Below, piece by piece: positions 12,836 through 60,952 of a stretch of DNA of 64,000 nt. A program made the position numbers and the translations under genes. Position 1 is the stretch's first letter; the number at the start of each line of letters is the position of its first letter. The notes beneath the pieces are model-generated. The model ran no database searches, had not been told where the DNA came from, and worked only from the letters and a program-made list of their open reading frames with translations. Origin of the DNA: Azadirachta indica (Eukaryota > Streptophyta > Magnoliopsida > Sapindales > Meliaceae). The stretch covers positions 16,340,363 through 16,404,362 of the forward strand of contig CM040449.1 of assembly GCA_022749755.1 (NCBI GenBank), given 5' to 3'.

Positions 12836-12922
12836 CACCCCCCCATCTCTTACATTATCAACACCAACAGCTATCACTAAATACAACTAAAATCTCAACC
12901 GTTTCTTCTTGAATTTTCAGTT

Positions 12923-13855
12923 ATGTCTGAGGAGAAGCACCACCACCGCGGCCTCTTCCACCACCACAAGGACGAAGAGAAGCCGGTTGATGGTTCCGTC
13001 TACTCCGACACGCCCTCCGCTTACTCTGAGTCAGCCAACGCTTACTCTGACTCGGCCAACGCTTACTCTGAGAGGCCCAGCGCTTACTCTGAGTCCGCCG
13101 ACGCTTACTCCGATAAGCCCAGCGCTTACTCTGAGTCCGCCAACGCTTACTCCGATAAGCCCATCTCTTACTCTGAGAAGCCCAGCGCTTACTCTGAGCC
13201 CGCCAACGCTTACTCCGATAAGCCCAGCTCTTACTCTGAGAAGCCTAGCGCTTACTCTGAGACTGCAGCTTACTCTAGTGAAGTCGGTGATTATGAGAAG
13301 AAAGGTGATGAGATTGATTACAAGAAGGAGGAGAAACACCACAAGCATCTTGAACACCTAGGAGAGCTTGGAACTGCTGCTGCTGGTGCTTTTGCTTTGG
13401 TAAACTTTTAGCTTTTATTATAATTGCCCAATAGTTTCATTTCTGATGCATATATGGAAATGTTTTTTTGTTTGGGCAACATATATATGTTTTCAGCTTA
13501 TGAAACCCTGCAACTGCAACGCAGATATAAAATACTACCAACTGTTGCATGAAACTAGGGTTTTTTTGCAAATAAAGCATCCCCATATTTTCTTTAGCAA
13601 TTCTCTATTAACCCTTAATTATTATATCTTATATTTTCTCTTAGTAAAAAGAATATTTGATCATGATATCAGCATGAGAAGCACAAGGGAGAGAAAGACC
13701 CAGAGCACGCCCACAGGCACAAGATAGAGGAGGAGATCGCGGCAGCAGCTGCCGTCGGGTCTGGCGGATTTGCATTCCATGAGCACCATGAGAAGAAAGA
13801 AACCAAGAAAGAAGAAGAGGAAGCTCATGGAAAGAAGCACCACCATCTCTTCTAA
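12923..13855 (+). CDS. ASR: ASR (ABA/stress/ripening) protein, expanded repeat form, 2 exons
   Basis: Exon 1 is 12923-13399 and exon 2 is 13673-13855. The intron of 273 bp has GT...AG ends and falls between codons (phase 0). The product is 219 residues. The His-rich N-terminus ([17 protein letters not shown]) is the zinc-binding part of ASR proteins. Residues 26-109 are 12 heptad repeats of the type AYSE(S/K)(A/P)(N/S), with partial copies to about 120. The conserved ABA/WDS domain then starts at [22 protein letters not shown] and ends [13 protein letters not shown] proteins are small, hydrophilic, largely disordered and act in nucleus and cytosol as chaperones and zinc-dependent DNA binders during drought, salt and ripening. 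The start is supported by alignment with the two paralogues. DRE, ABRE and TATA elements suggest ABA and drought induction. The usual ASR length is 100-150 residues; the excess here is the repeat. Confidence 0.95.
12998..13249 (+). repeat. 21-bp coding tandem repeat in ASR gene 1 exon 1
   Basis: There are 12 units of 21 bp (252 bp in total), each encoding a Tyr-Ser-acidic heptapeptide. The unit length is a multiple of three, so copy-number change keeps the frame; it also leaves other frames open on both strands, which are not genes. The repeat is absent from ASR 2 and 3, where EEKP is joined directly to ADEIDY. Confidence 0.9.
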
Positions 13856-16054: not shown

Positions 16055-16059
16055 CTTAG

Positions 16060-17456
16060 TGATGAATGTTTAAAAGTGTAGGTTTATCAAGAGAAATATT
16101 ATGATTTACACTTAATAATGTTCTTCTATTCCCCAATAATGAAGTATATTCCTTTATATTGAATTGTAAAACATGAATTGGACTAAATAGTTGGTTTTGC
16201 GCAGGTTTCGTATAATGAACGTATCTTTCAATTCAAATTATCAATTGATACGATTCTTGGGCGAGACAAACATAAACTCATCATTTCACAACTTTATAAG
16301 CCAAAGGTTGGACCAGTTCGAGCAATTAGTGGGACGAAATTGGGCTTCAACAGAACTCAAGCGCATCTTTGAATCAGCCCAATATGCTTCCGTATTTGGG
16401 CCGTATCTCCCTAAATATGTAACGAAAAATTACATGGTTGGATGATCTAGAAAGCTGAGAAAGGGATCTAAATTGTTTATGTTTTATACTTTCTCAAATT
16501 TCAATTACTCGATTACCAAAAAGAGCTATCATTCTAGAAGGGCGGTGGAGAAATGCGACTTGAACATCTCTGCCTATTTTCAACACAACTCATGGTCTAA
16601 AATAGAAATAAGAGCGAAATATGGACCATTAGAAAGATGAGTCATCCACCTACAACTTTGAAGAAGGATTCTTTACGAAATTCGGTGGTTTTCATAGTCA
16701 AAGATATGTTGGAAGTTGGTAAAACGTGATTAATTGGAAATTGACCAAATTATGTTCACACATGTGGAATGTCTTTTGTTTTACCTATATAAAGGAAGAC
16801 GTGGAAGTGAGAAGGGAGATCAGTTTTGTTTTCCATTTCTATTTTATTGTTGTAATTTGAATTTCAATGATGTATTTCTAATTTCGTAATTAGGGCTAAG
16901 GGTGAACTTTTGATGATTTTATAGTTTTGTTCTTTGATTCTTTGTTTTGTTCTTCATTGTTAATCTTTTTATTGATTGAGTACTATATTTTGCAAGTGAT
17001 TTTGAATTGTTAGAAACCTTGATTCATTGTTAACAAATGGTACATTGAATACTTGGATATTTTCTACATATCAAGAGTAAGGCAACTTATAGTTTTTCAC
17101 TATCAACTAAAAGGTAAGTCTTTTGATTTCTTTGTGCTTAAATGTTTTGTTTTCATCATCCAATTAAGATCACTTCTTTTGATTCTTAATTGTATTTTTC
17201 TTTAAAAAAAAGGATCAAGAATAAGTTCTATACAAATTATTAAAATGGATCCCTAATGCCCTAATATATAATAATATAGAATTTAAATTTGACAATAAGC
17301 AAATTCACTCCATTGGAATATTCGGATTTGTAATATTTAGACATTTGGACTTGTAGACTTAATATAACATATTCCCTGTGGACCGACACTCGGATTTCCA
17401 AACTTTATTACTTGAGAGAACCTATACTTGGGAGTTACAACCTTTAAGTTGTAGCA
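16060..17456 (+). repeat. 5' LTR of the Athila-like element
   Basis: It begins TGATGAATG and ends GTTGTAGCA, with TG...CA ends. A promoter-like TATATAAA lies at 16786-16793, followed about 60 bp later by the likely start of the transcribed R region. A frame of 84 codons (16191-16445) occurs inside and is unchanged in the other LTR; it resembles no family I know. Confidence 0.92.
16786..16793 (+). promoter_or_regulatory. TATA box in the 5' LTR
   Basis: TATATAAA is followed by GGAAGACGTGG. It is the probable core promoter that drives the genomic RNA of the element and would transcribe the LOG cargo as part of it. The same box lies at 25523-25530 in the 3' LTR. Confidence 0.6.
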
Positions 17457-17462
17457 AGTTTT

Positions 17463-17480
17463 TGGCGCCGTTGCCGGGGA
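17463..17480 (+). other. Primer-binding site, tRNA-Asp type
   Basis: TGGCGCCGTTGCCGGGGA lies 6 bases after the LTR end. This is the primer site known from Athila and Tat lineage elements, complementary to the 3' end of tRNA-Asp. Confidence 0.9.
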
Positions 17481-17834
17481 ATACGGTTTGTATAAAGTTT
17501 ACTAGTTCTTGTTTAATTTTCTTTTACTAACTTTAACCTCTAACTCTAACTTTAATATATATTTTTTTTATTCACTTGTTGTTATTTATTTTTATTGGGA
17601 GGCTCAGCCGCCCATTTATATTTACGTTATGGTTGGTTCTACACATACCACCTAATTTTTGTTCATGGTAGGTTTTGCCACCTTTCTTAATTTTTTCTAT
17701 TACGTATTGTGTTGTTATTTTTATTTACAATAATTGTATTAAGAGGAAGGTTATACCACCTCTTTTCTTTTTTATTTGTTTTATTGTGCTAACATTTTAT
17801 TGTATTGTGTTTTATTATTATTATTATTATTGTT

Positions 17835-19492
17835 ATTTTTATGCTTGGATGGTATCGTGATCCTCATTCTCATCGATTGGTGAAAGGTGATTCTGAAACC
17901 TCCTTTGGAAATTTGTTTGATTTATCTTCAAACTCACACACAACTAACACTATGGCTGAAAATGAAAGTATACATGGAGAAAATGAAAATCATCATGTTC
18001 GAACTATGCGTGAATATTTGCAACCTCCTCGAAATTCATCTCCTTCATGCTTTATTTTTCCGCTCAATGCAAATAACTTCATATTTAAGCCCGGTATGAT
18101 TCCTTTACTTCCTAATTTCCATGGCTTAGAGTCTGAGAGTCCTTATTTACATTTGAAAGAATTTGAGGAAGTATGTGCCACATTTATGGATCAAACGTGT
18201 AGTGAAGAAATAATTAAGCTAAAATTGTTTCCTTTTTCTTTAAAAGATAAAGCAAAAATATGGCTTAATTCATTAAGATCTAGATCTATAGGCACATGGC
18301 AAGAAATGCAAACCAAGTTTTTCAAGCAATTTTTCCCAATACATAAAACGAATGCTTTCAAGAGACAAATTCAAAATTTTTGTCAAAAAGGAAATGAAAC
18401 TATTTTCAATGTTTGGAAAGATTTAAAGACTTGTTGAATTCATGCCCACACCATGGTTTTGAAAAATGGCGTACGATAAGTTCCTTCTTTTACGAAGGGT
18501 TAACACCAGAGACAAAACAATTTGTTCAAATAATGTGTAATGGTGAATTTTTAGACAAAGACCCAGAAGAAGCTTTAGAGTATTTAGATCATTTAGCTGA
18601 GAACTCTCAATCCTGGCAAACCACTAGTTCCTCTGAAAATTCAATTAGATCTAATATGGCTAGTTCTAGTGGGGGTAAATATAATTTGAGTCAAGAAAAT
18701 GATTTAAGTGCTAGAATTACAAATTTAACGTGAAAGATTGAAGCCATGGAATTAAGGAAAATTAAAAAGGTCAAATCTGTGCATAATGATAAAATTTGTG
18801 AAATTTGTGAAGCCATGGGACATTCCACTCAAGATTGTCCAAATATTCCTATTTTTAAAGAAGTGTCGCATGACCAAGCAAATTCTATGAATTCCTTCAA
18901 AAAGCCTTTTTCCTCTAATTCTCCATATTCTGAAACATACAATCTTGGATGGAGAAATCACCCAAATTTTAGTTGGAGAAATGATAATCATGCCCATCCA
19001 CCACCTCAAAGACCTTCAAATTTTCCATCATACCATTCACCACATTTGAAAACTCTTGAGGAAACATTGCAAACATTCATGCAAGGGCAAACAAGCATAA
19101 ACAATCAAACATCACAAGCCATTGATGATATCAATAATACACTTTCAACATTGACCTTAGCTTTGCGCAGTCAAGAGAAAGGTAAATTTCCTGTTCAACC
19201 ACAGCCAAATCCAGTGGGTTAATTTCATGTAAGTGATTCTAACTCAAATGGCACACAGCATGAGAATGCCAACTCCATCACTACTCTCCGAAGTGGTAAG
19301 GTCATTGATAAAACCATTTTTTTGAAAGAGATTGAATCTAAAGAACCATCAAAATTAGTGAGTGAGGAAAATAATGTTGAACCTAAGATGTGTGATGTTA
19401 AAAAATGCCCTATCCCTGCTCCTTTTCCTCAAAGATTGCAACCAATTCAAAAGTTGAACCAAAATTCTGAAATTTTTGAACTTTTTAAGTAA
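17835..19492 (+). pseudogene. Athila/Tat-type gag, broken
   Basis: The capsid region starts around 17835 (MLGWYRDPHSHRL) and includes YLHLKEFEEVC, a LKLFPFSLKDKAKIWL stretch and FFPIHKTNAFKRQI. A frameshift lies at about 18413-18437: the frame ends WKDLKTC while the next frame continues ERFKDLLNSCPHHGF. In-frame stops follow at 18731 (TGA), 19220 (TAA) and 19490 (TAA). A zinc knuckle CEICEAMGHSTQDC is near 18799-18840. The order is typical gag, but at least four lesions abolish the full product. Confidence 0.85.
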
Positions 19493-19510
19493 GTCAAAAT
19501 TAACATTCCT

Positions 19511-20377
19511 TTGTTAGATGCAATTAAGCAAGTTCCTTCTTATGCCAAATTTTTGAAAGATTTATGCACTGTTAAAAGGAAGCTTAATATTCAAAAGAAA
19601 GCATTTTTAACTGAGAATGTTAGTTCGATTATTCAACATAACACTCCACCAAAATATAAAGATCCTGGTTGTCCCACCATTTCTTGTGTAATTGGAAACT
19701 TTAGGATAAACCATGCTTTACTTGATCTTGGTGCAAGTGTTAATTTGTTGCCATATTCAGTGTATGAGCAATTAGGTTTAGGTGAGCTTAAACCTACTTC
19801 TACAACACTTCAACTTGCTGATCGTTCTGTGAAAATACCACGAGGAATACTTGAGGATGTGTTAGTCCAAGTAGATAAATTTTACTTTCCTGTAGATTTT
19901 ATTGTCTTAGACACACAACCTGTTTCTAACTCAAGCACCCAAATTCCTGTCATATTAGGATGTCCATTTCTTGTTACATCTAATGCAATAATCAATTGTA
20001 GAAATGGAATTCTAAAATTATCCTTTGGAAACATGACATTGGAAATGAATGTGTTTAATATTTGCAAGCAACCTAGTGAAAATAATGACATGCATGAAGT
20101 TAGTTATATCGAGGAACTCGTTCATGACTACTTTAATGTTTCATCTTTTTCTGATCCCTTGGATGCTTGTTTAAATGGTTGCAATGATTTCAATTTTGAT
20201 GAAAATTTTGAAGTATCTCATATTTATTCTCTTTTAAAATCTTCTCAGGTCTTGGAAATTAATGGATGGAGACCAAAATTTGAAGACTTACCTCAACGAG
20301 CTGATAAACCGATGCCATCAAGTGTTCAACCACCAAAACTTGAATTGAAACCTCAAGTATGCTTTCTTGGGTGCTAA
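19511..20377 (+). pseudogene. Athila/Tat-type aspartic protease region
   Basis: An open stretch of 288 codons begins DAIKQVPSYAKFLKDLCT, a hallmark of Athila/Tat pol just before the protease. LLDLGASVNLLP (about 19721-19755) is the protease active-site motif in its lineage form, DLGA in place of DTGA. A second motif, VILGCPFL, lies near 19952. A frameshift near 20355 moves the reading into the frame of the reverse transcriptase. Confidence 0.85.
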
Positions 20378-22046
20378 TGAAACTTTTCTGGTGATAATTT
20401 CTTCTAAACTCAGTGCTCTTCAAGAATGTAAGTTGCTCGAAATCCTAAAATTGCATAAATATGCCTTAGGATGGACAATAGCTGACATAAAAGGAATTAG
20501 TCCTTTGATTTGCACACATAAGATATATTTGGAAGATAATGCCAAATCATCTAGACAAATGCAACGTAGGCTGAATCCTAATATGAAAGAGGTAGTGAGA
20601 AATAAAGTTCTCAAGCTTTTAGATGTAGGGATCATTTATCCTATTTCTGATAGCACATGGGTAAGTCCTACACAAGTTGTACCTAAGAAATCTGGAGTTA
20701 CTGTAGTCAAAAATGAAAATAATGAATTAATTCCAATTAGAACAATTACTAGCTGGAGAATGTGCATTGACTATAGGAAACTTAATTCAATGACTAGGAA
20801 AGACCATTTCCCATTACCATTCATGGATCAAATGTTAGAAAGGGTAGTTGGACATGCATTTTATTGTTTCCTAGATGGGTATTCTGGGTATAACCAAATT
20901 GAAATTGCACCTGAAGATCAAGAAAAGACCACTTTCACTTGTCCATTTGGAACTTTTGCATATAGAAGAATGCCATTTGGTTTGTGTAATGCACCAGCTA
21001 CATTTCAAAGATGCATGCTTAGTATTTTTAGTGATATGGTTGAACGATTTCTTGAAATTTTCATGGATGATTTTTCTGTGTTTGGTGATTCATTTGATGA
21101 TTGTTTATCTAACTTGGAAAAATTTTTGATTAGATGTGAAAAAAAAAATCTTGTGCTTAATTGGGAAAAATGTCATTTCATGGTCACAAATGGTATTGTG
21201 CTTGGTCACATTGTCTCATCAAAAGGAATTGAAGTAGATAAATCTAAAATTGAATTAATTGCCAATTTACCTGTTCCTAAGTCTGTTAAAGATGTTAGAT
21301 CATTTTTAGGACATGCTGGTTTTTATAGAAGATTTATCAAAAACTTTAATGTCATATCAAGACCATTGTGCAATCTCTTATTAAAAAATGCTTTCTTTGA
21401 GTGGACTGAGTCATGTCAAGAAGTTTTTGTCAAACTTAAAACCATGCTAACATCTGCTCCTATCATGTAGCCTCTAAACTGGACTTTACCTTTTGACATC
21501 GTGTGCGATGCTAGCGATTATGCTGTTGGAGCTGTTTTAGGACAACGAAAGGACAAGAAACACTATGTGATTTACTATGCTAGTAAAACTTTAAATAGTG
21601 CTCAAATGAATTATTCTACCACTGAAAAGGAATTACTTGCAGTAGTATTTGCATTGGATAAATTTCGATCTTATCTTGTTGGCTCACCTATTGTGATTTT
21701 TAGTGATCATGCAGCATTAAAATATCTTCTTTCAAAAAAAGATACTAAACCTAGATTGATTAGGTGGATTCTACTACTTCAAGAATTTGATTTCACAATT
21801 CAAGATAAAAAGGGAGTACAAAATGTGATTGCTGATCATTTGTCAAGACTTATGTTTGAAGAATCGACTAAGACAACACCGATTAATGACAATTTCCCTG
21901 ATAAGCAACTTTTCAATGTTTCTATTTTACCTTGGTTTGCTGATATTGTCAATTTTCTTGTTATAGGTCAAATGCCAAATCATTGGAATGCTCAAGATAA
22001 AAAGAAATTTTTAAGGGAGTTACTTTCCCGGTCAAGTGGCAGATAA
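20367..22046 (+). pseudogene. Reverse transcriptase and RNase H, one nonsense codon
   Basis: The frame 20367-21470 has the full palm: WRMCIDYRKLN, then LDGYSGYNQI, MPFGLCNAPATFQ and the catalytic FMDDF at residues 232-236 (MDD at 21063-21071). A TAG at 21468 interrupts SAPIM-PLNWTLPFD, an expected Gln position. The same frame resumes at 21471 with RNase H: FDIVCDASDYAVGAVL, STTEKELLAVVFAL, FSDHAALKYLL, and ADHLSRL near 21830. The reading ends at 22046 shortly after KKKFLREL, where related elements continue into the integrase zinc finger. No HHCC or DDE integrase sequence is visible afterwards. Confidence 0.9.
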
Positions 22047-22146
22047 CGGTACTCCGTGACTCTTCAAGTCGGTTCTTTCAGTTGCCCAAAATTACTGATA
22101 CTCTTTTTTTTTTCTCTCACTTCTTTTCCTATTCTTTTTTTTCATT

Positions 22147-22695
22147 ATGGATGTCATTCTTTCTAGATTGCAAATATATTTTCCTTCTTTTCCTAAAGAT
22201 GTTCTACGAAAAATGTACCAAGTTGGGTGTGCAAAATTAAGAATGCTTATGCAAAAAGGTATTTCTGAAGATGTGCGATGGATAATTGAAGCAAAGGTAC
22301 GTTTAGCAGGTGAGTTTTCTGATTCATTTGTTTCACGCATGCCTGGTTTAGGTAAGAGCTCTTTTGCAAAGAAATGAAGAGCGAAAAGGTTACAAGTGTG
22401 TCACAATTATGCACGTTCAACCTGTAACAAGCGATGTCGTTCTCTAGGCATGGTGTCTACTAATAGAGAAGATAAAATTAAATTCATCAAAGATGGACTG
22501 AGTAAGGAGTTTTTAGATAATATTTTATTGACTCTTGAGACGCATCCTAGTGGATATGTGCAACGTGAAATTCTCAATTTGTATACATTATTTCAAAAAG
22601 AACGTGATCGTTATAATCTTGGGAATCTGACTTTAAAAGACCCTGTTTGCCAATTTGTAAGAAAATTGGATGGGAAGCCAATCCTCGACCCATAG
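22147..22695 (+). pseudogene. Unknown frame between RNase H and LOG, one in-frame stop
   Basis: It has 183 codons in one frame from ATG (MDVILSRLQIYFPSFPKDVL) to TAG, broken once by TGA at 22375-22377. The first part is basic and amphipathic; the second part (FIKDGLSKEFLDNILLTLE, FQKERDRYNLGNLTLKD) looks like a helical soluble domain. I do not recognise it. It could be an extra element-encoded frame, the end of another captured transcript, or part of the unit that brought in LOG. The codon use is AT-rich like the rest of the element. Confidence 0.4.
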
Positions 22696-22917
22696 AGGGC
22701 GTTTAAGCCGTTACTGGACGTAAAACCAGAGGAAGATGTGAGCCACAATCACAACTATCTATAAATATTTACTTTTAGCTGTCATTGTTGAAATTTTTAT
22801 GTTTTAAATTCCTATATTAGCTGTTATCTTTGACATTTTTACATTTTTAAATTTTAACTTTCATGACAACAGCTGGCTTACCTCTATTGGTTTCATTAAT
22901 GCATTCTCTTTAAGTTG

Positions 22918-22924
22918 TATAAAT
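22918..22924 (+). promoter_or_regulatory. TATA-like box upstream of the LOG frame
   Basis: TATAAAT lies 71 bp before the LOG ATG. It might be a private promoter or part of a captured leader. AT-rich chance occurrence is possible. Confidence 0.25.
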
Positions 22925-22994
22925 GCAGGACCTCACTTCTTTATTTTCATAAGAAATTTGAATCACTGACGAGGGTAAAAGACTGCAAAAAAAA

Positions 22995-23645
22995 ATGAAA
23001 GGAGTTTCTGCTCATCAAATTAAAACTATTTGTGTTTTTTGTGGGTCAAGTTCTGGGAAGGGTGAAGAGTTTGTAAAAGCAGCAAACAACCTGGGTCGAG
23101 TTTTAGCTGAGCGAAAATTTAACCTAATGTATGGAGGAGGCAGCCTTGGGTTAATGGGGTGTGTATCAACTGCCGCACATATAGAAGGAAGTGAAGTCAT
23201 AGGTATCATACCAAAGGCTTTATCTGCAGGTAACATAACTGGCAAAACAATTGGAGAAGAACTAATGGTCTCAACAATGCATGAAAGAATTGCTAAAATG
23301 CTTGATTCTGCAGATGCTTTTATTGCGTTACCAGGTGGTTTTGGGACCTTAGAAGAAATTTTTCAAATTGCATTTTGGGCACAACTCACCGTTCATCAAA
23401 AACCCATAGGATTGTTAAATGTTAATGATTTCTTTAACAAATTGTTGTCTTTTCTTGATCATGCTGTAGAACAGAATTTTATTTCACAGATGGCTCGCAA
23501 ACTCCTCATTTCTGCTCCGACTGCTAATGACTTGATCAATCAGTTGCAGAACTTTGTCTATGAACCAGATCCAACAATGGCACGATTAGAATGGTCAAGT
23601 GAAAGCAGTAAAAAGCGAAAACTGGATTTGTCGCTTCATTTGTAA
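22995..23645 (+). CDS. LOG-like: LOG-family cytokinin riboside 5'-monophosphate phosphoribohydrolase, captured, intronless
   Basis: This is an intact frame of 216 residues. LOG enzymes release free, active cytokinin base and ribose 5-phosphate from cytokinin nucleotides in cytosol and nucleus. The Rossmann-like start ICVFCGSSSGKGEEF (12-26), the glycine-rich YGGGSLGLMG (46-55), the MHERIAKM segment (95-102) and the family signature PGGFGTLEE (113-121) are all present and in order, and QKPIGLLNV follows. Where plant LOGs usually read MHQRKAEM, the Arg is kept but the next Lys is Ile (residue 99). A basic KKRK lies near the C-terminus (206-209). Plant LOG genes normally have several introns; none is present, so capture through an RNA intermediate is likely. 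It lies in sense orientation inside the retrotransposon, where integrase is expected. Length matches the family. Confidence 0.92.
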   Translation: MKGVSAHQIKTICVFCGSSSGKGEEFVKAANNLGRVLAERKFNLMYGGGSLGLMGCVSTAAHIEGSEVIGIIPKALSAGNITGKTIGEELMVSTMHERIAKMLDSADAFIALPGGFGTLEEIFQIAFWAQLTVHQKPIGLLNVNDFFNKLLSFLDHAVEQNFISQMARKLLISAPTANDLINQLQNFVYEPDPTMARLEWSSESSKKRKLDLSLHL

Positions 23646-24796
23646 CGTTTCTTATCTTTTTTTTTCTACTCATTGCATTTTGTTATTTTTTTCATTATTT
23701 TTGCTTAAATTTGTTTCAGGTTTTACTTGTGTTTCAATAACTACTATCTCAGGTAATATTCTCTATACTGTACCTCTTTACTTTTAAACATTGGGGACAA
23801 TGTTGCAATCTGGTTGGGGGGAGTGTAGTCGACATAAGTAACCATTTTTTTTTTATATACAACTAAAAAAAAAATTATTAGATTCATAATTTGTAAGGAT
23901 GGTAGAGTAAGGAGTAATCTTACTCTTGAAACACATCTTAGTAGGTATGCATTATCATTTGTTTTGATTTTTGAATTTTATAACAAAGAATTTATCATTC
24001 ACTTTCTTTTGAATTGATCAAATATACAAATTCTCACATCATCATCACATAATAAATTATGCTCAAATACTCAATCAGTAAAATATTTATAAACCATCTT
24101 TCATACACACACTTTGATACATGATTGTGAATGACATATTGAAATTTTACAATATTTGAGCTCTTTAATTTTGTAAAAGGTAGCAACTAAGGGTTCAAAA
24201 AAAAAATCTCCAAAAAAAAATATATAAAAAATAATAAAAAAAAGTTAAAAACAAAATAAATAAATAAAAATTTTAATCAAAACTTTTACTTAGTAACCTG
24301 GCTTCTTGCCTAATCAGCAGTGAATGTTCGCGTAAAACGGTAAAGTTTTGATATGAATAAGTTCATAGCCTTAACTCGAGTAATTAAGCCCGTAGGGGTG
24401 TTTTAATACCTAATATCCTAAGACCAATTGGTCTGAGAGTTATTGGCTCAAAGCTCGCTACATAGGTTAGGTTATGTACAAAAAAAAAAAAATGGAGATA
24501 GAAATAATCTTTGCCCAAAGAAGTTTTCCTTGACAAAATTTAGAACCAATGTTGTTTGATTCTAATTAAATCCCATAACATGTATTAGTTATAAAAGCAC
24601 AAAAAAAAAGGTTTATTAATAATTCGACTGATGAGTATTTGGCACATATATAGTAAATTTTTAAGTGAGAGTTTGTTTATTTTGAGAAGATGAAAAGAAA
24701 AAGAATGATTTTTACTTTGAATGTAAATTCTATAAATCAACTCTAAATGCTATTGCTTATATTACTAGGGACTAGTAATAAGCTGGTTGGGGGGTG
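23646..24796 (+). other. 3' untranslated part of the Athila-like element with two polypurine tracts
   Basis: A first GGTTGGGGGG-type tract lies at 23812-23822, preceded by CATTGGGGACAATGTT, a motif seen near the end of related gypsy elements. A second, GGTTGGGGGGTG, lies at 24785-24796, directly before the 3' LTR, and is the true priming site for plus-strand synthesis. Between them is A-rich non-coding sequence (around 24190-24300). Confidence 0.7.
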
Positions 24797-26193
24797 TGAT
24801 GAATGTTTAAAAGTGTAGGTTTATCAAGAGAAATATTATGATTTACATTTAATAATGTCCTTCTATTCCCCAATAATGAAGTATATTCCTTTATATTGAA
24901 TTGTAAAACATGAATTGGACTAAATAGTTGGTTTTGCGCAGGTTTCGTATAATGAACGTATCTTTCAATTCAAATTATCAATTGATACGATTCTTGGGCG
25001 AGACAAACATAAACTCATCATTTCACAACTTTATAAGCCAAAGGTTGGACCAGTTCGAGCAATTAGTGGGACGAAATTGGGCTTCAACAGAACTCAAGCG
25101 CATCTTTGAATCAGCCCAATATGCTTCCGTATTTGGGCCGTATCTCCCTAAATATGTAACGAAAAATTACATGGTTGGATGATCTAGAAAGCTGAGAAAG
25201 GGATCTAAATTGTTTATGTTTTATACTTTCTCAAATTTCAATTACTCGATTACCAAAAAGAGCTATCATTCTAGAAGGGCGGTGGAGAAATGCGACTTGA
25301 ACATCTCTGCCTATTTTCAACACAACTCATGGTCTAAAATAGAAATAAGAGCGAAATATGGACCATTAGAAAGATGAGTCATCCACCTACAACTTTGAAG
25401 AAGGATTCTTTACGAAATTCGGTGGTTTTCATAGTCAAAGATATGTTGGAAGTTGGTAAAGCGTGATTAATTGGAAATTGACCAAATTATGTTCACACAT
25501 GTGGAATGTCTTTTGTTTTACCTATATAAAGGAAGACGTGGAAGTGAGAAGGGAGATCAGTTTTGTTTTCCATTTCTATTTTATTGTTGTAATTTGAATT
25601 TCAATGATATATTTCTAATTTCGTAATTAGGGCTAAGGGTGAACTTTTGATGATTTTATAGTTTTGTTCTTTGATTCTTTGTTTTGTTGTTCATTGTTAA
25701 TCTTTTTATTGATTGAGTACTATATTTTGCAAGTGATTTTGAATTGTTAGAAACCTTGATTCATTGTTAACAAATGGTACATTGAATACTTGGATATTTT
25801 CTACATATCAAAAGTAAGGCAACTTATAGTTTTTCACTATCAACTAAAAGGTAAGTCTTTTGATTTCTTTGTGCTTAAATGTTTTGTTTTCATCATCCAA
25901 TTAAGATCACTTCTTTTGATTCTTAATTGTATTTTTCTTTAAAAAAAAGGATCAAGAATAAGTTCTATACAAATTATTAAAATGGATCCCTAATGCCCTA
26001 ATATGTAATAATATAGAATTTAAATTTGACAATAAGCAAATTCACTCCATTGGAATATTCAGATTTATAATATTTAGACCTTTGAACTTGTAAACTTAAT
26101 ATAACATATTCCCTGTGGACCGACACTCGGACTTTCGAACTTTATTACTTGAGACAACCTATACTTGGGAGTTACAACCTTTAAGTTGTAGCA
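24797..26193 (+). repeat. 3' LTR of the Athila-like element
   Basis: It is 1397 bp, the same length and ends as the 5' LTR and about 99% identical. Differences are mostly transitions clustered in the last 200 bp. It repeats the 84-codon frame (24928-25182) and the TATA box. Confidence 0.92.
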
Positions 26194-26198
26194 TTTAG

Positions 26199-26619: not shown

Positions 26620-27645
26620 ATGTCAGTGTTATGTGGATATAGCTTTTGTTCCTTACAGTTTTTTAAGTTAGTATAGTAGAGGTATAATCTTTAGCCCTCA
26701 TTAATATTATAGTTGGTACAGCAGAGAGACTTTATTTGATCTTTCATGGATATTGAAATTAGAGATGTATTGTTGGCCCTTTTTAGGTATTAAAGTTAGT
26801 ACCATAAAGGCACGATATTTGGCCCTTTATGATGATTGTAGTTATTACCATGGAGGTATAATGTTTAGTCTTCTGAGCTTTGATGTTAGTACCATGGAGG
26901 TATATATTTTTGTTCTTAATGTCAGTACTACAGAGGTACACTTATTTTTGTCTTTTTAGATTTTATATTTTAACACCGTAAAGAAGCATGGTTTAGGCTC
27001 ATTTGAGCATTAGAGGTTCATACTAGGAGGTAAAAGTTTTTCTTTTACACTTTATAGTTTTAGTAGCATGGAACTACAATGTTTGGTCCTTAGGCATTGA
27101 AGTTGGCACCATATAGGTGTATTGTCTTGGCCCTTATAAGGCATTGTAGCTGGTACTATGTAAGTGCATTTTTTGGCCCTCGCGGGGCATTAAAGTTGGC
27201 ACTGCATTGGTGCCTTGTCTTGGCTTTCATAGGGCATTTAAGTTGGCACCATATAGGTGCATTGTCTTAGCCCCATGGGGCATTGTAGATAGCACCATGT
27301 AGGTATAATGTCTTGATCCTCATAGGGAATTAAAACTGGCCCCGCATAGGTGCACTATCTTAATCCTTATGGAGCATTGAAGTTGGCATCGGTAGGTGCA
27401 TTGTCTTGACTCTCGTGGGGCATTATAGCTGGCATTGCGTAGGTGCATTGTCTTAGCCCTTATGGATCATTGAAGCTAGTGCTGTGTAGGTGTATTGTCT
27501 TGGCCTTCATGGGATATTGAAACTGATACTACGTAGGTGCAATGTTTTAGTCTTTGTGGGGCATTGTAATTAGCACCGTGTAGGTGCATTGTTTTGGCCC
27601 TTGTAAGGCATTGTAGCTTGCACTGCATAGGTGCATTGTTAAATT
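26620..27645. repeat. Minisatellite of about 47 bp, degenerate
   Basis: Roughly 20 units follow the theme GGTGCATTGTCTTGGCCCTT, then A-GGGGCATT-GAAGTTGGCACCATGTA. Units are best preserved after 27080 and more diverged before. The frame at 27476-27694 on the minus strand is only the repeat read through. The GC content is higher than the flanks. Confidence 0.85.
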
Positions 27646-32904: not shown

Positions 32905-35900
32905 GGTTCAACCTTTTGTATTTACACGTAATGTTATTACTATAGTCGTTGACACTTCGAACTTGAATATGTACTCTAGGCTATAATAATTAACTTCTTG
33001 GTTATATATTTTTTATTTTGTTGGTGGTATATATACTTTGAGCATAGGTGGATTTGAGCTTTATTATGGTCGGTTGTAATATTTTTTTGAATAAACTTAT
33101 CAGTATATATTACTTCTTCTTGTTTTTTTTAAAAGAAATAGGTTAATAATTTTGTATCATTACATTATATGCATTTTGTTTGAATTTTTAATAATTGATA
33201 GCATCATGTTATGTGCAACATCTTTATGTATTTTTCTCATTGTGATGTTGTGAGGCTTCCTATTGCATATTTGTGGCTAGTTCTTGCATGGATAAATCAT
33301 GTATATAGAGCCTAAGTTTTGAGGATTGAACTCATCATGAGCAATTTCCATGTAGGTAATAGTAGAACAACTTTCTTAGATTTTTTGAGATTTTAATACC
33401 TTTAGAATAGCCTTAGATCTACAATCACATGTCTTGTTCTTGAACTTGATCAACCATCTATCCACAACATCTTCAAAATCACCAATATTAGTTGAACTAC
33501 ATGTTAAATATGGCATTTTTTAAAAGATATTTTTGAAAGATTTTTGCCAAATTTATTTTACTATTTTAGGCCGTTGCAATGGTAAAAAATTTGCCACTTG
33601 AATTTTTGTATGATAAATATGAAATTTTTTAGCATTTTTCCGGGCATTTTTGTAGTAGCACCAACATGCTTTTCATGCAAGTAAATGAATAATTTTTTTA
33701 TTTACCTTAAAACCAGGCAAAACAGGGACAAAATTATAGCTTCATAATATCTTTGATGTTTTAGGAGCAAAATAATACTTAGTTAACTTTAGTCAGTTAA
33801 AACTGAATAATAAAACTAATGATGTGGGGGTCACGTTGAATATATTTACAAACATCGGATGTAAATCGAATGTTGTTAAAACATTCTAAAGGTAATATAA
33901 ATGTACCAATTTTTAAAATATGAAGCACATTATTATTACATGCTAGCGTTTATTAGAATAGAAAACAAAATGAAATATATGATGTTAAAGTATTATTATA
34001 CATACAAACTTGTTTGTACAACATGATGTGGTTATGTTAAATTGTTTTTTACATATTCTACATAATAAATTATTTGGGATTGTATCAACAATATAACATT
34101 GCTAGAATACATCAATTTATATAAATAAAATTAACACAAATTCCCTATATATAATTCATACTATAAAAAATAAGGAGAATGCTTAATATCCCTTATTATT
34201 TGCCTTAATCCCCAATTATCCTCTGTTGCTTGTGTAATATTATACATATATACTATGTTTTCTAGTATATTTTAGCGATTGCATGTAGAATGATGAAAAG
34301 ATGGGCTAATATGCATTATTTAAGGTTGATTTAAATGAGGAGTTTTTTCTTTTTTCTGTTTAAATTGGGAGTATTTATGTCTAATTGTGTAATGTATTCG
34401 GTATGTTAACAATTTTGGAGATTATATATTTCACTTAAATAAAAAGAGTTAATAGGTTAGTTGCTTAGTTACGGGGGTTTTGTGTATTTATGATATACAT
34501 ATGTATGATTTAGCTTGCATGGGTATGAACTATTATTGATGGTTGTGTGTTGTTAATAAGATGGATATTACATAGATGAAGATGATAGTTATCTTTTGTA
34601 GAAGGAAAGTTAAATTGGGGAAGGTTAATGTCAATCATTATAGTTTGGTATCAACTATTAATAATGTGTTGGAGATTGTTGAGAATTGACACAAATTTAA
34701 TAATGAAAATTTCATTATTAATGCTGTTGTATCTTGGTCAAATGAGAAATTACTATTAGAGAACGATAAAAGACTTCATTAATTTCATATCCATGTATAA
34801 AGGCTTTGACAGAGTGCTATTGGAGATAAATGTCTTGTCTTTAAAGCAAATGCCAATAAAATAGCCAAAAGAACATGGATAATCATTGACCCAAACACTT
34901 CTATTAAACACCACTCCTAAACCAAAACCAAAATCATTTCTTTAATAGTCAACCCTTAGCATAAAAAGACCCATAAGTAGAAAACTACCATAATAGAAGG
35001 CCTAAACCAAAAATCATCCTTCTTCTAAGATTCACTCGTCAACTAGCCTTTGTTATAATAGATTACACTGATGATGAATATCTTATTTCTCAAGTGACTC
35101 AAACACAAAAACAAATAGAAACACAGGAGTAAGTAGAATAGAGAGAACTAAGGGAAAGAATTCCATCATATGTAGATCAATAAGAGGATGTTGATTTGTT
35201 GGATGTATGGTTATATGTTTGAGGAAGATGTTTGATTTAGGTTTAACTCCATTATTCTTATGATAAATTAAATACACAGTTTTAATATCAAAAAATTGAA
35301 ATTTTAAATCAATTTTTTTTTTTTGTGAAAACCATATGAGATCCAAGATTTTCCTTTTAAATTCATTTGCTATTTTTGCTGTCTTATTCAATCTATGTTA
35401 TTTATGTATAAATTTGTAAGGTAGAATTCTATTTTATTAGATTTTATAGCTCGACAATCCCATTATGAGAATTTTTGTTTGCCTATGATCTTCTAGTATT
35501 AGATAGAGTTTTTGCTAAAGTAACATTGCTAGAATTGATTTATGTGATTATTGTTATTACTAATTTTACCAATTTATATTTAATTAGTCCTTACATGTAC
35601 CCTAATTTCAAGAGTTATCGAAATTTTTATACATAAAATGATGTTCAAAGCTCTGCATTATTGCATATGGTATATTATGATTATATTCTTTTGCAAATGA
35701 CAAATACTTAGTTGAAAGTATCACATGTAGCCACAAAATTTGAAAGGAATATGCTATTTTTTACCTTTTTTAGTAGGTGGGTTGTGAGTAGAAGTTACTT
35801 AGCTGGCTTTTGAAAAATCTATTGTAACAAATATGATAGATTATATTATGTTAACAAAAATGGATTGTGTGAATAAGATTGCCAGCTTTGAATGGTCAAA

Positions 35901-37078
35901 TTCTTAGATAAGTTGATGAATCTATAAATCTTGTCATAAATCAACAATTTTAGATGCTTGTTTTTTTTGTACATGTTTGGAAGTTATCTAGATTGATTGT
36001 GCTTTTGGAGAGTTTATACATTGCATTAAATTTTTTGAATTATTCTTAATTTTTTTTCAATTCAGTTGTTTGTCATTTGAGCAATTTGAAACTTTATTTC
36101 TATTTAATGTTCTTGAGTTATTGGAATATATACTATTCGTATGAATCATTACCTATTCTTATTGATTGACTTAATTTATGAACATTCATCGAGTTAATGA
36201 ATAGAGAGATAAGAGGAGAACTTGGCTTCTACATTTAATTAAGATTGGTTCTTATTTCTTTATCACTTTTTTTCTTCCCTTCAAATCAACCATTCTATTA
36301 GCTAATTGTATTCTTCTAATTTTACTAGTTGTTTCACGAGGCAATTCAAAACTATAATGTACCATAAATATGCTAAAAAACAAAGTGAGTTTTGAAATAT
36401 GTTTTAAGTTAATTGAACTTGTATTTGTACAATAATCATACTTAAAGGCTATGCACTTGTTATGTTGATATTGTCAAAGGAGAAGTTGAATGGCAATGGT
36501 TGCAAAGGGAAGAGCTAGAATTTGAGCTTCATTTTGTAAAACACCAGACGTAATAATTATTTAAAGTGTATCTTATTGTAAACTTGAATTGTTCAAAGTG
36601 TATTGCAAAGATTTGAATCATAAAGGATATATTAGTTATTTTATTTATTTTATATATTTAAATTACTTAATATGCATAACAGAACAAAAAATAGATTGCA
36701 AACGATTTTGAATCATAAAGTGTATATAGGTCATTTATCTACTTTGTTAACACACACAACATACTTAAAAATAGGTTATTACATCAATTTTCATCAAAAA
36801 TTGGTGTCAAAATCATATATTTGTGAAAAGTAAGTATTTAAGTGCATTTAAGTAATTGCATTATTTGGATTAGTTGACTAACAGTCAAGAGGAGGTAAAT
36901 GATACGTTCTCTAAACTTTCTCTCTAAGTGATATAATTCTAAACCTCAGAGGAGGTATTTGATAATATCCTCTAAAATTAAGAATTATGCTAGTCATATA
37001 TATGCCAATTTAAGAAAGTTGTTTACTTTTGAAGTCATGAGCCTCTAGGCCACAAACAATCTTCAGGTTGACCACAAT
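32905..37078. other. Intergenic DNA in block copy 1
   Basis: It is mostly AT-rich with no intact gene. A stretch at 34576-34790 reads MKMIVIFCRRKVKLGKV on the plus strand and could be a decayed MULE N-terminus; this is weak. The minus-strand frame 35083-35391 (102 codons, Lys-rich then hydrophobic) is repeated in the other block copy only because the block is duplicated. Confidence 0.4.
36780..36990 (+). repeat. Dispersed repeat pair, first member
   Basis: It is similar to 43740-43944. Both contain TTnGGnTTAGTTGACTAACA and the ending CTnAACCTCAGnGGAGG followed by TGATAATATCC. It is probably the end of a non-coding retroelement. The pair recurs in block copy 2. Confidence 0.5.
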
Positions 37079-37610
37079 TAGAGATGGGAATAGGGCAAGA
37101 TATGGGTGGGAGATCTTTCCCGTTCCCCAACCCGTTTTAATTTTGATCCCCATTTTCTAATAAAATATAATAGGATAGGGGTGGGGAATCCCCATATGGG
37201 GAATGGATTTACCATTCCCACTTATTTTCCCCATTTTTGTATTTATTTATACTAAATGCTAACTAAAAATTTTATTAATATGTTATGGTGTTATTTGTAC
37301 ATGATAATTATATTGAAAATATAAATTTCATTGTTGAAAGGATAAAAAATTATGATTTATAAATTTTTTTAATTAAATATTTTCCACATATATATATTTA
37401 TTTTAAAAATAGCATATTATAATATTTTATTATATATATATATATGGGGAATGGGGTGGGGAGTACTAAACCATTTCCTACCCCATTAATAATATGGGGA
37501 TTAATGTCCCCTATTCCTTACTCCATTCCGTATTATATCATCTCAGTTTTATCACAATTAGGGCGGATTTCCATGAGATCCCAAACCCATAGGGGATTTT
37601 GCCATCCCTA
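37079..37610. mobile_element. Non-autonomous hAT-type element, block copy 1
   Basis: The 532-bp element starts TAGAGATGG and ends CCATCCCTA. Flanks are ACCACAAT (37071-37078) and ACTACAAT (37611-37618), an 8-bp target duplication with one change, as for hAT transposons. The interior is rich in GGGG/CCCC blocks that can pair. No coding capacity is seen. Confidence 0.75.
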
Positions 37611-37734
37611 ACTACAATAGATAAAATCAATGAATTAAGTCACTTGCATAAAAATGGCTTGTGAAAAATGAACCAATAAATTAGTCGTGTTGCTTGTTTG
37701 ACCCTTTTTTTTTTCAAAATAGACAATGTTACAA

Positions 37735-38590
37735 ATAATATGACTAAGTTGTGGAACAGTTGTTTAATAAGCATAGAAGGAAGCCTTTTATTGAGCTGCT
37801 AAAGTTTATCATAATGAAATTAATGAAAAGGATGATTACGAGGAGGAAAAATTCTGCACAGTAGGCTACTTTGCCTTCGAGAGTTAATAAAAAGATTCAC
37901 ATTCTATCAAAGGCTGTAAGGAAGCTTCTAGTTGTGAAATCCAATAAATATGAGTTTAAAGTGATTGATTTAAGTTTAAAGATGAACGATATTTTATGTT
38001 GGACTTTAGTCATTCAATTTGTGATTGTTTGGGTTGGCAGTTGAATGGGTTCCCATGCAAGCATGCAATGACATCTTAACCAAGTTGATTATGTTGATAG
38101 AAGCAAGTCTAAAGATGCATATTTTGCTACTTATTCATCCATAATCCATCAATTGCCTGACAAGTTATTATGACCAAAAATTGACTTGCTAGATTTAAAG
38201 CCTCAAGAAATAATTGCTAAGGCTGGTGGGCCAAAATATAATAGAAGGAAAGATTCATAATAAGGCCTTTTATGAAAGGAAAAGATACAGTACTAGGTGT
38301 AATAAATGTCGTCATAGCAAAAGAAGTTGTCCACTTACCAAGTTATGTCACTTTCTTCTCATGTTATAGGTACAATCAAAGAAATCTTTTAATTTCCTTT
38401 TAAAGTTACTATTTTCTTTTTTTATTTTAACAAGTTCAAAAAAGCAAATAAAGAGGAGTGAAGCTGTTATAAAAGACATAACTAAAGTTGGTACAAGTCA
38501 ACATAATCCCTAGAAGGCAAGACTAACACTTAGAAAAGAATAATGCATACCCATCCATCATCCTCTCAAGGTGAGAATACTAGTTTTAGT
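37735..38590 (+). pseudogene. MULE transposase C-terminal relic, block copy 1
   Basis: NNMTKLWNS (near 37735) matches the end of the catalytic domain. KFIIMKLMKRMITRR follows near 37805. A SWIM zinc finger reads CDCLGWQLNGFPCKHAM at 38020-38070 (CXCX9CXH). A knuckle RCNKCRHSKRSC lies near 38295-38330. Stops and frameshifts separate the pieces. The relic is from a different MULE copy than 30480-32090, because both contain the stretch around the NNM motif. Confidence 0.65.
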
Positions 38591-39779
38591 TCTGGTTTTG
38601 GTGGAAGCACTAAGGCGTAGAGCAACTTAAAAGATATCAAAGATGAAAGACATTTTGTTACAACTTGTTATTTGTTTGTTAAAGTAATTACACAATATTG
38701 TTTTTCATTTTTTGCTATGAATGCAGTAATTATGCATGATATAGTTGCTTCTAAAGGTAGTTTTAGTTGGACAAAGAATACATGTGTTAAGGTACAGATG
38801 AAACACATTTAGGGCATTTTCATTATTCATCTTATATTTTGATTGTTTATAGTTGGACTTGAATTTTAAGCTTACCATTGAAATTTTATCAAATAGTATG
38901 TATCATTGGTTTGATTTGAATACAATTACTTTTTTTGTTTTTCTTAATCTTCAAAGTGTACAGGCTGGATTTGAAATGTTTTACAATTGCATTATACAAA
39001 ATGCAAAACAACACTATGATCACCATTAGCATCTTCTTAACATGTCCATTGGACATAGGTCTTTCTCTAGATTTATTGTTCACTTCATTTTATTGACTTA
39101 TGCACGATATACTTGGGCTTATATTACTTGAAATGATGCTTAATGTTGCCATATATCTCTTATATTAGCATGTGTCTCGTACTTAGTTGGGCTTTTAGAA
39201 ACTAACATACCCGCAAACCTAATGTCACTTGTAGTAAAATATAGCTTATTTGGATTTTTTGAACTCTCTAATATCTAACTCCAGCCTTGACACCATATTG
39301 ACAAAACCTACTGTTAAACTTCATGATTCCACCATTAAGTTCACTTATGTTGGCACTATTTTTGTTCAACGCATTGTCTAGTAACCTATGTTATTTGAAA
39401 TCATCATTAGTTGGCTTCTAAAAGCAAAAAAAATTCACAACTTGGGTACTTTATACAAGAAAAAAAGAAAGCTTAGTAAGGTTTTTTTTGGACTCTTAAA
39501 TATCTATTGTAGCCTTCCTTTCACATCTACACAAGTTATTTCTAAATTTTATTATTTCTCCATTCCTTTACATTGTTGAAAGATTAAATGAAACTTATTA
39601 TAGTATTTTCCTTGTATTTTTATATTTGAAGTATGGAAGAACTTGTGTTTTTTGGATTTGGAGAATGGACAAAATAATAACTTAAAAGTTTGTGAACAGA
39701 ACGAAGAAAATGAAAACTTTGTTTTTGTTTTAATTTCTATGATTTTTAAAGGCTTCAAATTCATGTTGCTGTTTATGAC
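38591..39779. other. Intergenic DNA in block copy 1
   Basis: No gene is recognised. Short frames on both strands (38889-39083 and 39552-39764) are AT-rich and lack domain features. Confidence 0.4.
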
Positions 39780-40284
39780 TAGGCTTGGGCAAAAAGGAAT
39801 AACTAGACCGAATTAAACCGAACTATTCGGTTTGATTATCATTCAACTTCTATCTTAATTAGTTTTTGTTTTTTAAAACCAATCATGTCTGTTATAATCG
39901 AACCAAATTGTGAACTAACTATAACAGAACTTAAAATTAAAAAAAGAAGAAGGAATATTGTCTCTCCCGAAATTTGTGAAAATTAGGAGTAAAGAGAGAG
40001 TTATGAAAATTTATAGAGAAAAGGGGAAATTTTTGTAAATTTCTACAAATATTCTCTCTATCTCTAATTTTAATAAATTTCAAAGAGGTATATAATAATA
40101 TCCCTAAAAAAATTGGAATAAAAAGTTTGGATTTGGATAAGTCTCGGATAATGTCGGAACCAAATTAAACTAATTCCGCTCGGGTTTTATAGTTCAGTTG
40201 ATTTCGGTTTGAGTCTGAGTAACCGAATTTTAGTTCAATTCGGTTCATTTTGTATGAAAACTAAACCGAAGCTGATCAAGCCTA
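39780..40284. mobile_element. Second small hAT-type element, block copy 1
   Basis: The 505-bp element starts TAGGCTTG and ends CAAGCCTA. It is flanked by TTTATGAC (39772-39779) and TTTATTAC (40285-40292), an 8-bp duplication with one change. CCGAAT/ATTCGG motifs are clustered in both ends. Non-coding. Confidence 0.75.
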
Positions 40285-40804
40285 TTTATTACATTAAAAA
40301 CTATTTCCAACTTCCTTGTATTTTGCCCCAAAGACAAAAAGCAAGTTACCATTTTTATATTTACCTAAGGGTCTTTTAGTAATTCACTTACAATACTATT
40401 GTGCAATGTCTATATTTCAACAATTAAGCGAACAAAATTAAAATTGAAGTAATATAAATTATTTTTCTATATTTCAAATTAAATAATATAAATTATTATT
40501 CTATTAATTTGTTTGACTTTTAACAAGGAGATTTGTGTAACTTTGTTTTGTTTTTTTGGATCTCAAAACAAATAACAACTGAAAATTGATAGTTGACAGA
40601 TAACAGATGAAACTATAAAAGTACAAATTTAATTACCTAAAATATTAAGTTTTGAAGATAACAATAGATAGGTAGCGGTCATTCTCTCTTAAAAAATTAC
40701 ATACCCACAAAATGGATTAGTCAAAAACCAACAATCGCACACATCCAGAATCACCCTCGATATCTTGGTAGCAAAGAAACTTTTTGGCATTGGCTATCAA
40801 CACT

Positions 40805-40812
40805 TATAAATA
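40805..40812 (+). promoter_or_regulatory. TATA box of ASR gene 2
   Basis: TATAAATA occupies the same position as in ASR 1. The upstream DRE and ABRE of ASR 1 are not present: the aligned positions read ACCAAC (40727-40732) and ACCCTCGATATC (40753 on). Confidence 0.75.
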
Positions 40813-40899
40813 CACCCCCCATCTCTCACACCACATCAACACCAACATCTATTACAAATACAATTAATATTTCTATCGTTTCTTGTTCTATTTTCAGTT

Positions 40900-41554
40900 A
40901 TGTCTGAGGAGAAGCATCACCACCACCACGGCCTCTTCCATCATCAAAAGGACGAAGAGAAGCCGGCCGATGAGATTGATTACAAGAAGGAGGAGAAGCA
41001 CCACAAGCACCTTGAACACCTAGGAGAGCTTGGAACTGCTGCTGCTGGTGCTTTTGCTTTGGTAAATTTTAACTTTCTTTTAAGTGCTTTTCTAATTCTT
41101 ATTCTGGGTTAATTATAGTTTCATTTCTGAGGCATTCATGGAAGTGTTTTTTGACAGCATATACATGTTTTCAGTCTATGAAACCCTGCAACTGCTACGC
41201 ACAAATATAACATCACCAGCTGTTGCATGAAACTAGGGCTTTTGACTGCTTTCTGAAAACTGCTTTCGGAAATCAAGCATCCCCATATTTTCTTTATCAA
41301 TTCTCTATTACCCTTAATTATTATATATTATATTTTCTCTTAATAAATAGAATATTTGATGATGATATCAGCATGAGAAGCACAAAGCAAAGAAAGACCC
41401 AGAGCATGCCCATAGGCACAAGGTACAGGAGGAGATAGCGGCGGCTGCTGCCGTAGGGGCTGGTGGATTTGCATTCCATGAGCGCCATGAGAAGAAAGAA
41501 GCCAAGAAAGAAGAAAAGGAAGCTCATGGAAAGAAGCACCACCAGCTCTTCTAA
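40900..41554 (+). CDS. ASR: ASR protein, short form, 2 exons (copy in block 1)
   Basis: Exon 1 is 40900-41061 and exon 2 is 41372-41554; the 310-bp intron has GT...AG ends in phase 0, at the same position as ASR 1. The product is 114 residues: a His-rich N-terminus with five consecutive His ([15 protein letters not shown]), then [20 protein letters not shown] and the full ABA/WDS domain ending GKKHHQLF. It lacks the heptad expansion of ASR 1 and has the typical ASR length, so it probably shows the ancestral form. Promoter, intron position and 3' UTR align with ASR 1, so the two arose by local duplication. Reading through the intron would give a false 70-codon frame. Confidence 0.95.
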
Positions 41555-41757
41555 GTTAATCCTTAATTAATTAATTATATAATTTCTGTAATATTTTAAT
41601 TGTGTTACGTTTGTTAATTGCTATAATTATCAGTGGCAACTGCTTAACTGCCCTAAATAATACTGAGTGACGTGTCAGCATTTCAGGTGTGATGTGGGTG
41701 ACTTTGTAAAACCGGTGTCATCTGGTTCTCTTGTTATCTATGTATATCATATATGTT

Positions 41758-41763
41758 AATAAA
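41758..41763 (+). terminator. Polyadenylation signal of ASR gene 2
   Basis: AATAAA is at the position matching ASR 1, about 204 bp after the stop. Confidence 0.5.
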
Positions 41764-41769
41764 TTAATT

Positions 41770-57662: not shown

Positions 57663-57786
57663 ACTACAATAGATAAAATCAATGAATTAAGTCACTTGCA
57701 TAAAAATGGCTTGTGAAAAATGAACCAATAAATTAGTCGTGTTGCTTGTTTGACCCTTTTTTTTTTCAAAATAGACAATGTTACAA

Positions 57787-60857: not shown

Positions 60858-60865
60858 TATAAATA
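60858..60865 (+). promoter_or_regulatory. TATA box of ASR gene 3
   Basis: TATAAATA is identical in position and context to ASR gene 2, and the DRE and ABRE of ASR 1 are again missing. Confidence 0.75.
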
Positions 60866-60952
60866 CACCCCCCATCTCTCACACCACATCAACACCAACA
60901 TCTATTACAAATACAATTAATATTTCTATCGTTTCTTGTTCTATTTTCAGTT

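Follow-up and report, generated by a model that had tools for sequence, protein, structure and literature searches.

The locus considered here raises the question of what a LOG-family gene is doing inside an LTR retrotransposon, and whether its product still acts as a cytokinin-activating enzyme. Within the window (the whole 64,000-nucleotide stretch of Azadirachta indica DNA that was analysed), positions 16060–26193 are occupied by an Athila-like Ty3/gypsy LTR element of ~10.1 kb, which carries a sense-oriented LOG frame between RNase H and the 3′ LTR. The preliminary description had placed a 216-codon LOG frame in this position and orientation and had held that an LTR element carries the LOG-derived gene. 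Both statements were borne out, the first by the frame together with the LTRs, primer binding site and polypurine tract, the second by gag-pol, the LTRs and a match to PF03641. The features of the element, in window coordinates, are as follows.

16055–16059, unstranded: 5′ target-site repeat CTTAG, matching its partner TTTAG (26194–26198) at 4/5 positions
16060–17456, + strand: 5′ LTR (TGATGAATG...GTAGCA), 1397 bases, with 16 substitutions and no indel relative to the 3′ LTR
17463–17480, + strand: primer binding site TGGCGCCGTTGCCGGGGA, Athila-type, six bases 3′ of the 5′ LTR
17793–18434, + strand: first open piece of gag (Retrotrans_gag, PF03732, 3.8e-13, over 17841–18437)
18398–19489, + strand: remainder of gag in another frame, with stops at 18731 and 19220 and ended at 19490; contains zinc-knuckle-like CEICEAMGHSTQDCP
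19493–20374, + strand: aspartic protease region (PF13650, 8.5e-06)
20349–21467, + strand: reverse transcriptase (PF00078, 8.9e-29), frame shifted relative to the protease, stop at 21468
21471–22043, + strand: RNase H (PF17917, 2e-38), the frame closing after the domain
22099–22692, + strand: open stretch of 92 + 105 codons with one intervening stop, submitted to the Pfam scan
22995–23645, + strand: retro-LOG gene, 216 aa, type-I LOG fold (PF03641)
23286–23291, + strand: codons for R98 (catalytic Arg, retained) and I99 (Lys in sampled LOGs)
23364–23366, + strand: codon for Q124 (prenyl-pocket Glu in sampled LOGs)
23610–23642, + strand: conserved C-terminal tail KKRKLDLSLHL, a basic stretch followed by an extended EAR-like LxLxLxL
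23810–23821, + strand: internal polypurine-tract-like CTGGTTGGGGGG, just 3′ of the LOG frame
24782–24794, + strand: polypurine tract GCTGGTTGGGGGG, adjoining the 3′ LTR
24797–26193, + strand: 3′ LTR, 1397 bases
26194–26198, unstranded: 3′ target-site repeat TTTAG

The near-identity of the LTRs and the matching target-site repeats indicate a single insertion; derivation of the LTRs from two unrelated insertions was ruled out by their 98.9% identity, the absence of indels and the 4/5 match of the target repeats. Gag, aspartic protease, reverse transcriptase and RNase H all lie 5′ of LOG, in the sense orientation and in Ty3/gypsy order, and only 948 bases separate the end of the RNase H frame from the LOG frame. 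From the ATG at 17841 gag begins with MLGWYRDPHSHRLVKG, and its zinc-knuckle matches (CEICEAMGHSTQDCP) score below the Pfam cut-offs. Pfam scans of 15 stop-to-stop pieces, 12 in the sense orientation and 3 antisense, matched protease, reverse transcriptase and RNase H but no integrase. Pieces of less than ~40 codons were mostly skipped, such that a heavily degraded integrase could have gone unnoticed. The lineage is called Athila-like only, based on the gag-pol style and the primer site, both of which we take to be Athila-type; the primer site TGGCGCCGTTGCCGGGGA is presumably that for tRNA-Asp. The Pfam scan gave no match for the open stretch at 22099–22692, in the interval between RNase H and LOG, which could be the remnant of another extra ORF. 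Separately, CTGGTTGGGGGG at 23810–23821 is almost identical to the polypurine tract at the 3′ LTR.

The LOG frame at 22995–23645 runs uninterrupted from ATG to TAA and matches PF03641 (1e-40) and PF18306 (2.2e-15). Its best solved relatives are the Arabidopsis proteins At2g37210/LOG3 (2a33, 5.1e-64) and At5g11950/LOG8 (1ydh, 6.6e-56), and an AlphaFold model of the window protein (pLDDT 85.7) superposes on the nearest solved chain, 2a33 (AtLOG3), with an rmsd of 1.0 Å. As modeled, the LOG fold is intact, and the PGGxGTxxE motif and the catalytic residues Arg (R98) and Glu (E121) are retained. The lack of introns is consistent with the capture of a spliced RNA.

The substrate pocket presents a different picture. 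The adenine/prenyl pocket of CgLOG includes Met96, His97, Lys100, Glu121, Glu125 and Trp129, and the catalytic residues are proposed to be Arg99 and Glu122 (PMC4979012). The window LOG keeps the counterparts M95, H96, R98, E120, E121 and W128, while I99 replaces Lys and Q124 replaces Glu (motifs MHERI and EEIFQ), and thus it lacks both the Lys that follows the catalytic Arg and the Glu located three residues after the catalytic Glu. Both of these residues were present in all 114 of the plant LOGs sampled (a set that falls into just two clusters when grouped at 80% identity, one LOG1/3/4-like and one LOG8-like) and in 80/80 bacterial LOGs, the top 80 among at least 577 loci. Among the 169 retro-side proteins, the window copy included, both were replaced in 156, as against 0/114 plant and 0/80 bacterial sequences. 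The replacements were chiefly Lys to Leu (57), Met (51) or Ile (46) and Glu to Gln (77) or His (74); Lys was kept in 13 of the 169, in 12 cases with Glu and in one, P0033, with Gln in place of Glu and with the C-terminal tail present. The catalytic Arg was retained in 159, the catalytic Glu in 163, the pocket Trp in 167 and the pocket His in 77 of these proteins; a Melia copy has Gln at the catalytic Arg position.

Because so many retro-side proteins retain the catalytic Arg and Glu, some hydrolase activity is possible, although we infer from the pocket residues that enzyme activity was probably lost or changed. A phosphoribohydrolase of altered specificity, acting on another nucleotide and with a tail that merely localises the protein, would agree with the retention of the catalytic pair in most members and with pocket changes that are consistent instead of random. 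Nevertheless, the Corynebacterium LOGs that have been assayed require the pocket Lys even to hydrolyse AMP (PMC4979012, PMC5379747), and no candidate substrate suggests itself, which makes this explanation rather unlikely. We consider it unlikely, too, that the gene encodes a working cytokinin-activating enzyme, thereby favoring dividing cells, where the element would be able to spread. The fold, the PGGxGT loop, the catalytic Arg and Glu, and the pocket Trp, Met and His of the window copy are what such an enzyme would require. Alanine substitutions at the AMP-binding and catalytic residues of CgLOG, except Ser19, almost abolished activity (PMC4979012), however, and the Lys156Ala substitution in CgLOGII eliminated it completely (PMC5379747); for the position of I99 in particular, exchange of Lys for Ala abolished or nearly abolished the activity of these two enzymes (PMC4979012, PMC5379747). 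Replacement of both Lys and Glu in 156/169 proteins and retention of the pocket His in only 77/169 also argue against this function. The proposal in the preliminary description of a "mobile cytokinin-activation gene" is therefore doubtful, the key Lys being Ile and the prenyl-pocket Glu being Gln in the window protein.

A second departure from host LOGs lies at the C terminus. The window protein ends in KKRKLDLSLHL, in which KKRK is a basic stretch and LDLSLHL fits the EAR-type pattern LxLxL. A terminal LxLxL is present in 139/169 retro-side proteins, in the extended form in 137/169, and in the last 30 residues of 0/114 host LOGs; the motif is short, and it occurs somewhere inside 5/114 of the latter. 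Among 33 retro representatives sharing <80% identity, 26 have the terminal motif, whereas 2000 shuffles of the last 11 residues of these representatives gave 0.67 on average and never more than 5. In 30 of these 33 (three basal Lys-keeping representatives were left out and P0111 was kept in), mean entropy falls from 1.87 bits in the linker (188–205) to 0.92 in the tail (206–216), and within the tail it drops to 0.22 for each of the leucines L212, L214 and L216, versus 1.49 at position 213 and 1.86 at 215. Judged by its sequence, this pattern of conservation is that of a motif. The low pLDDT (~45–51) of the tail in the AlphaFold model of the window LOG is what a short linear motif would be expected to show.

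Thirty of the 169 proteins lack a terminal LxLxL. Eleven of these are basal members with Lys and Glu, one of which has a different end; several others are cut-off models, and several are off by one Ile, Phe or Ser. P0031 and P0053 end in KKRKLD plus one residue, and P0085 ends in IDLNLTP, which fits DLNxxP, the other EAR consensus. EAR motifs are of the form LxLxL or DLNx(x)P, LxLxLxL forms being known and mostly C-terminal, and the C-terminal EAR motif of ZCT1 and ZCT2 is LDLNLTP (PMC9956375). A switch in P0085 between two accepted EAR types is expected of a tail with an EAR role.

How old and how widespread the gene is was examined using database relatives, which represent the best 120 per search and are biased toward intact frames. 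The protein search scored 7997 candidates, 7176 of them at 1e-30 and some not element-borne, and the best 120 were listed. By a count made by eye, the best 120 of 7176 included at least 40 clusters of Reevesia pubescens with 18 chromosome labels; they also included a 327-member cluster with Pterospermum kingtungense as its representative; several Diplodiscus trichospermus and Populus clusters, along with relatives from Melia and Parasponia, were also among the matches listed, and a second search with P0111 as the query gave further Xanthoceras and other contigs. Melia and Xanthoceras belong to the Sapindales, Reevesia, Pterospermum and Diplodiscus to the Malvales, Parasponia to the Rosales and Populus to the Malpighiales. 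Protein identity to these relatives is ~59–69% across several plant orders and 83–87% for the nearest two among the matches listed, P0001 (ENA; 83%) and P0004 (Melia azedarach; 87% over 90%), and the frames are of almost equal length across several plant orders. A search of viral contigs for LOG relatives gave only one distant locus (26%), and a search of genome contigs listed only bacterial LOGs, which were reused as outgroup and control. The suggestion of an amplified LOG-bearing family in the preliminary description is supported, in that some plants contain many copies of such genes.

Element sequence was found in two of 292 fetched proteins: the Melia azedarach model P0004 opens with the N-terminus of the window gag (26 aa, 85%), and the Xanthoceras sorbifolium model P0002 contains Athila-like gag-pol (29 aa, 59%). 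Both are annotated as host genes and are probably element-derived gag-pol/LOG fusions. P0002, P0003 and P0076 each contain two tandem LOG copies, the first of which is partial in some. The Melia gag-to-LOG model was not accepted as proving that a spliced subgenomic RNA exists, because the LOG N-terminus is removed in it and the model is probably automated.

The 169 retro-side sequences formed one clade with a support of 1.0 in FastTree, apart from the host LOGs sampled, and IQ-TREE with the bacterial LOG outgroup gave support of 99 for the retro clade and 100 for the host clade. Within the retro clade, a basal branch (Xanthoceras and other relatives) separates first, then P0111, then all others; support for P0111 plus the rest is 100, while P0111 as sister to the rest received 52 in IQ-TREE and 0.977 in FastTree. 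In the basal members Lys and Glu are still present and the C terminus reads SKRRRLD or SKKRRLA. P0111 retains both residues together with an EAR tail, and nearly all of the remaining retro-LOGs have lost both residues, most of them having the tail. We read this as suggestive of an ordered change from basic tail to EAR tail to loss of the cytokinin pocket, the soft spot being the weak placement of P0111. The "recent capture" suggested at the outset did not hold up: the gene belongs to a clade of its own, represented in Sapindales, Malvales and Populus and lying outside the sampled host LOGs, with relatives that are ~59–69% identical. The best reading is that retro-LOG is an old element-borne LOG paralogue that is multicopy in rosids. 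Most of the clade presumably rides in elements, and the gene is likely to be under purifying selection.

It might instead be proposed that a host LOG paralogue has expanded by other means and that one copy was picked up by the element. Several database names are those of ordinary LOG genes, and element sequence in 2/292 proteins only is what this explanation would predict. The presence of at least 40 Reevesia clusters on 18 chromosome labels, element pieces in the models of two other species and a YgdH domain in Gypsy consensuses all argue against it, and we regard it as improbable.

Does the intact frame itself reveal that the gene has been selected? The LTR pair differs by 13 transitions and 3 transversions, with no indel (K2P divergence 0.0116), which under assumed rates of 1.3e-8 and 7e-9 dates the insertion to ~0.44–0.83 million years. 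Over that time the LOG frame should have gathered ~3.7 substitutions and 0.13 stops, and the probability that it would remain open by chance is 0.88, 0.70 or 0.50 at indel-to-substitution ratios of 0, 0.06 or 0.15, so that an open frame in a single copy neither needs selection nor proves it. For gag-pol, ~25 substitutions and 0.93 stops are expected, versus four in-frame stops observed (18731, 19220, 19490 and 21468; P 0.015), in addition to two frame changes, near 18400–18434 and 20349–20374, the second of which could be natural. The six lesions together have a P of 0.0004 to 0.33 at indel ratios of 0 to 0.15. Based on the excess of stops, some of the damage was probably present before the last jump, and the element would accordingly have received help in trans. 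The contrast drawn in the preliminary description between an intact cargo and a damaged gag-pol therefore survives on one side only: the open LOG frame is unremarkable (P 0.50–0.88), but gag-pol has more stops than expected for its age (P 0.015). It is very improbable that the gene is a mere passenger, intact here just because the insertion is young. The low LTR divergence, the intact-frame chance of 0.50–0.88 (indel ratios 0.15 to 0) and the known capture of genes by plant LTR elements (PMC7264820) would allow this, but similar frame lengths and alternating Leu conservation in several orders would then be unexpected.

The reading that we prefer, and to which we assign an even chance, is that retro-LOG is an old LOG-derived accessory gene that was turned from cytokinin release to a nuclear, TOPLESS-binding, nucleotide-binding protein. 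We propose that the protein would dimerise, as a type-I LOG, and bind nucleotide, that the basic stretch of its tail may support nuclear entry and that its EAR motif may bind TOPLESS-type co-repressors, both of the latter being conjectured from short motifs. The protein might then bias host repression or silencing to the benefit of the element instead of releasing cytokinin, either by bringing repression to some target or by taking the co-repressor away from others, and the gene would have shifted from enzyme to adaptor. A fuller version of this proposal, which we advance tentatively and consider possible, is that the element lineage made a nuclear accessory protein that recruits or titrates TOPLESS, by gaining the EAR tail and then losing the pocket, and that selection has kept it across several rosid orders.

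Other features of the window lie outside the element. Positions 32905–43944 and 52959–64000 are 11-kb direct copies that are 99.7% identical, the second reaching the window end, and reflect either a segmental duplication of very recent date or an artefact of the assembly. A frame at 12881–13411, which looks to us like an ASR (abscisic acid, stress, ripening) protein, has a 21-base coding repeat, and similar DNA is found at 40703–42047 and 60756–62100, inside the duplicated block. Just past the element, at 27093–27640, there are diverged direct repeats offset by ~90–190 bases and multiples thereof, with 70–81% identity.

Among known elements, Athila presumably provides one of the closest likenesses, in the order gag, protease, reverse transcriptase and RNase H, the extra forward ORF between pol and the 3′ LTR, the primer binding site and the gag-pol style. 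Unlike Athila, the present element has no recognised integrase, and its extra ORF is LOG; the ATHILA ORF-1 family had no match among the pieces scanned. One RNase H domain was found in the element by the Pfam scan, with no separate search for an additional RNase H, which is a mark of Tat (PMC6317226). A YgdH (LOG) domain has been reported in Gypsy consensuses from Citrus sinensis and C. clementina and, without the n5 filter, from Populus trichocarpa (PMC9289625), a study that cites Steinbauerova et al. 2011 for YgdH in Gypsy elements. These elements likewise have an extra LOG-family domain in a Gypsy-type LTR element, but the excerpted account (PMC9289625) gives the domain only and describes no residue loss, tail or clade. 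Nor did the open-access literature that was searched yield an account of active-site loss or a tail in element-borne LOGs. The LOG-in-Gypsy arrangement is thus known in kind; what is new here, as judged from that literature, is an old multicopy family that combines pocket loss with a conserved tail of EAR type.

With AtLOG3 and CgLOG, retro-LOG shares the type-I fold, the PGGxGTxxE motif and the catalytic Arg and Glu; it differs from them in the replaced pocket Lys and Glu and in its basic and EAR-like tail. Annotation of retro-LOGs, which number many per genome in some plants, as cytokinin-activating LOG enzymes is inadvisable. Orchid Ty3/gypsy elements acquired an m6A demethylase (2-oxoglutarate dioxygenase) domain, which the title of that study calls functional (PMC9289625). 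There too an enzyme domain has become a fixture of a Gypsy family, although in retro-LOG the enzyme residues are partly lost.

To our knowledge, many extra ORFs in plant LTR retrotransposons have no established role. Because retro-LOG has a clear ancestor, a consistent active-site change and a recognisable short motif, its job is directly testable. If our proposal is correct, transposable elements encode proteins that tap a general co-repressor of the host. The pathogen effectors Jsi1 and HaRxL21 reportedly use EAR-type motifs. Both of these effectors, from U. maydis (PMC8126959) and downy mildew (PMC7446885), respectively, interact with TOPLESS and offer an analogy of a foreign entity tapping the same co-repressor, though in the present case a retrotransposon would be the carrier and the binding is a proposal. 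Retro-LOG would then be an element-encoded counterpart of co-repressor-hijacking effectors.
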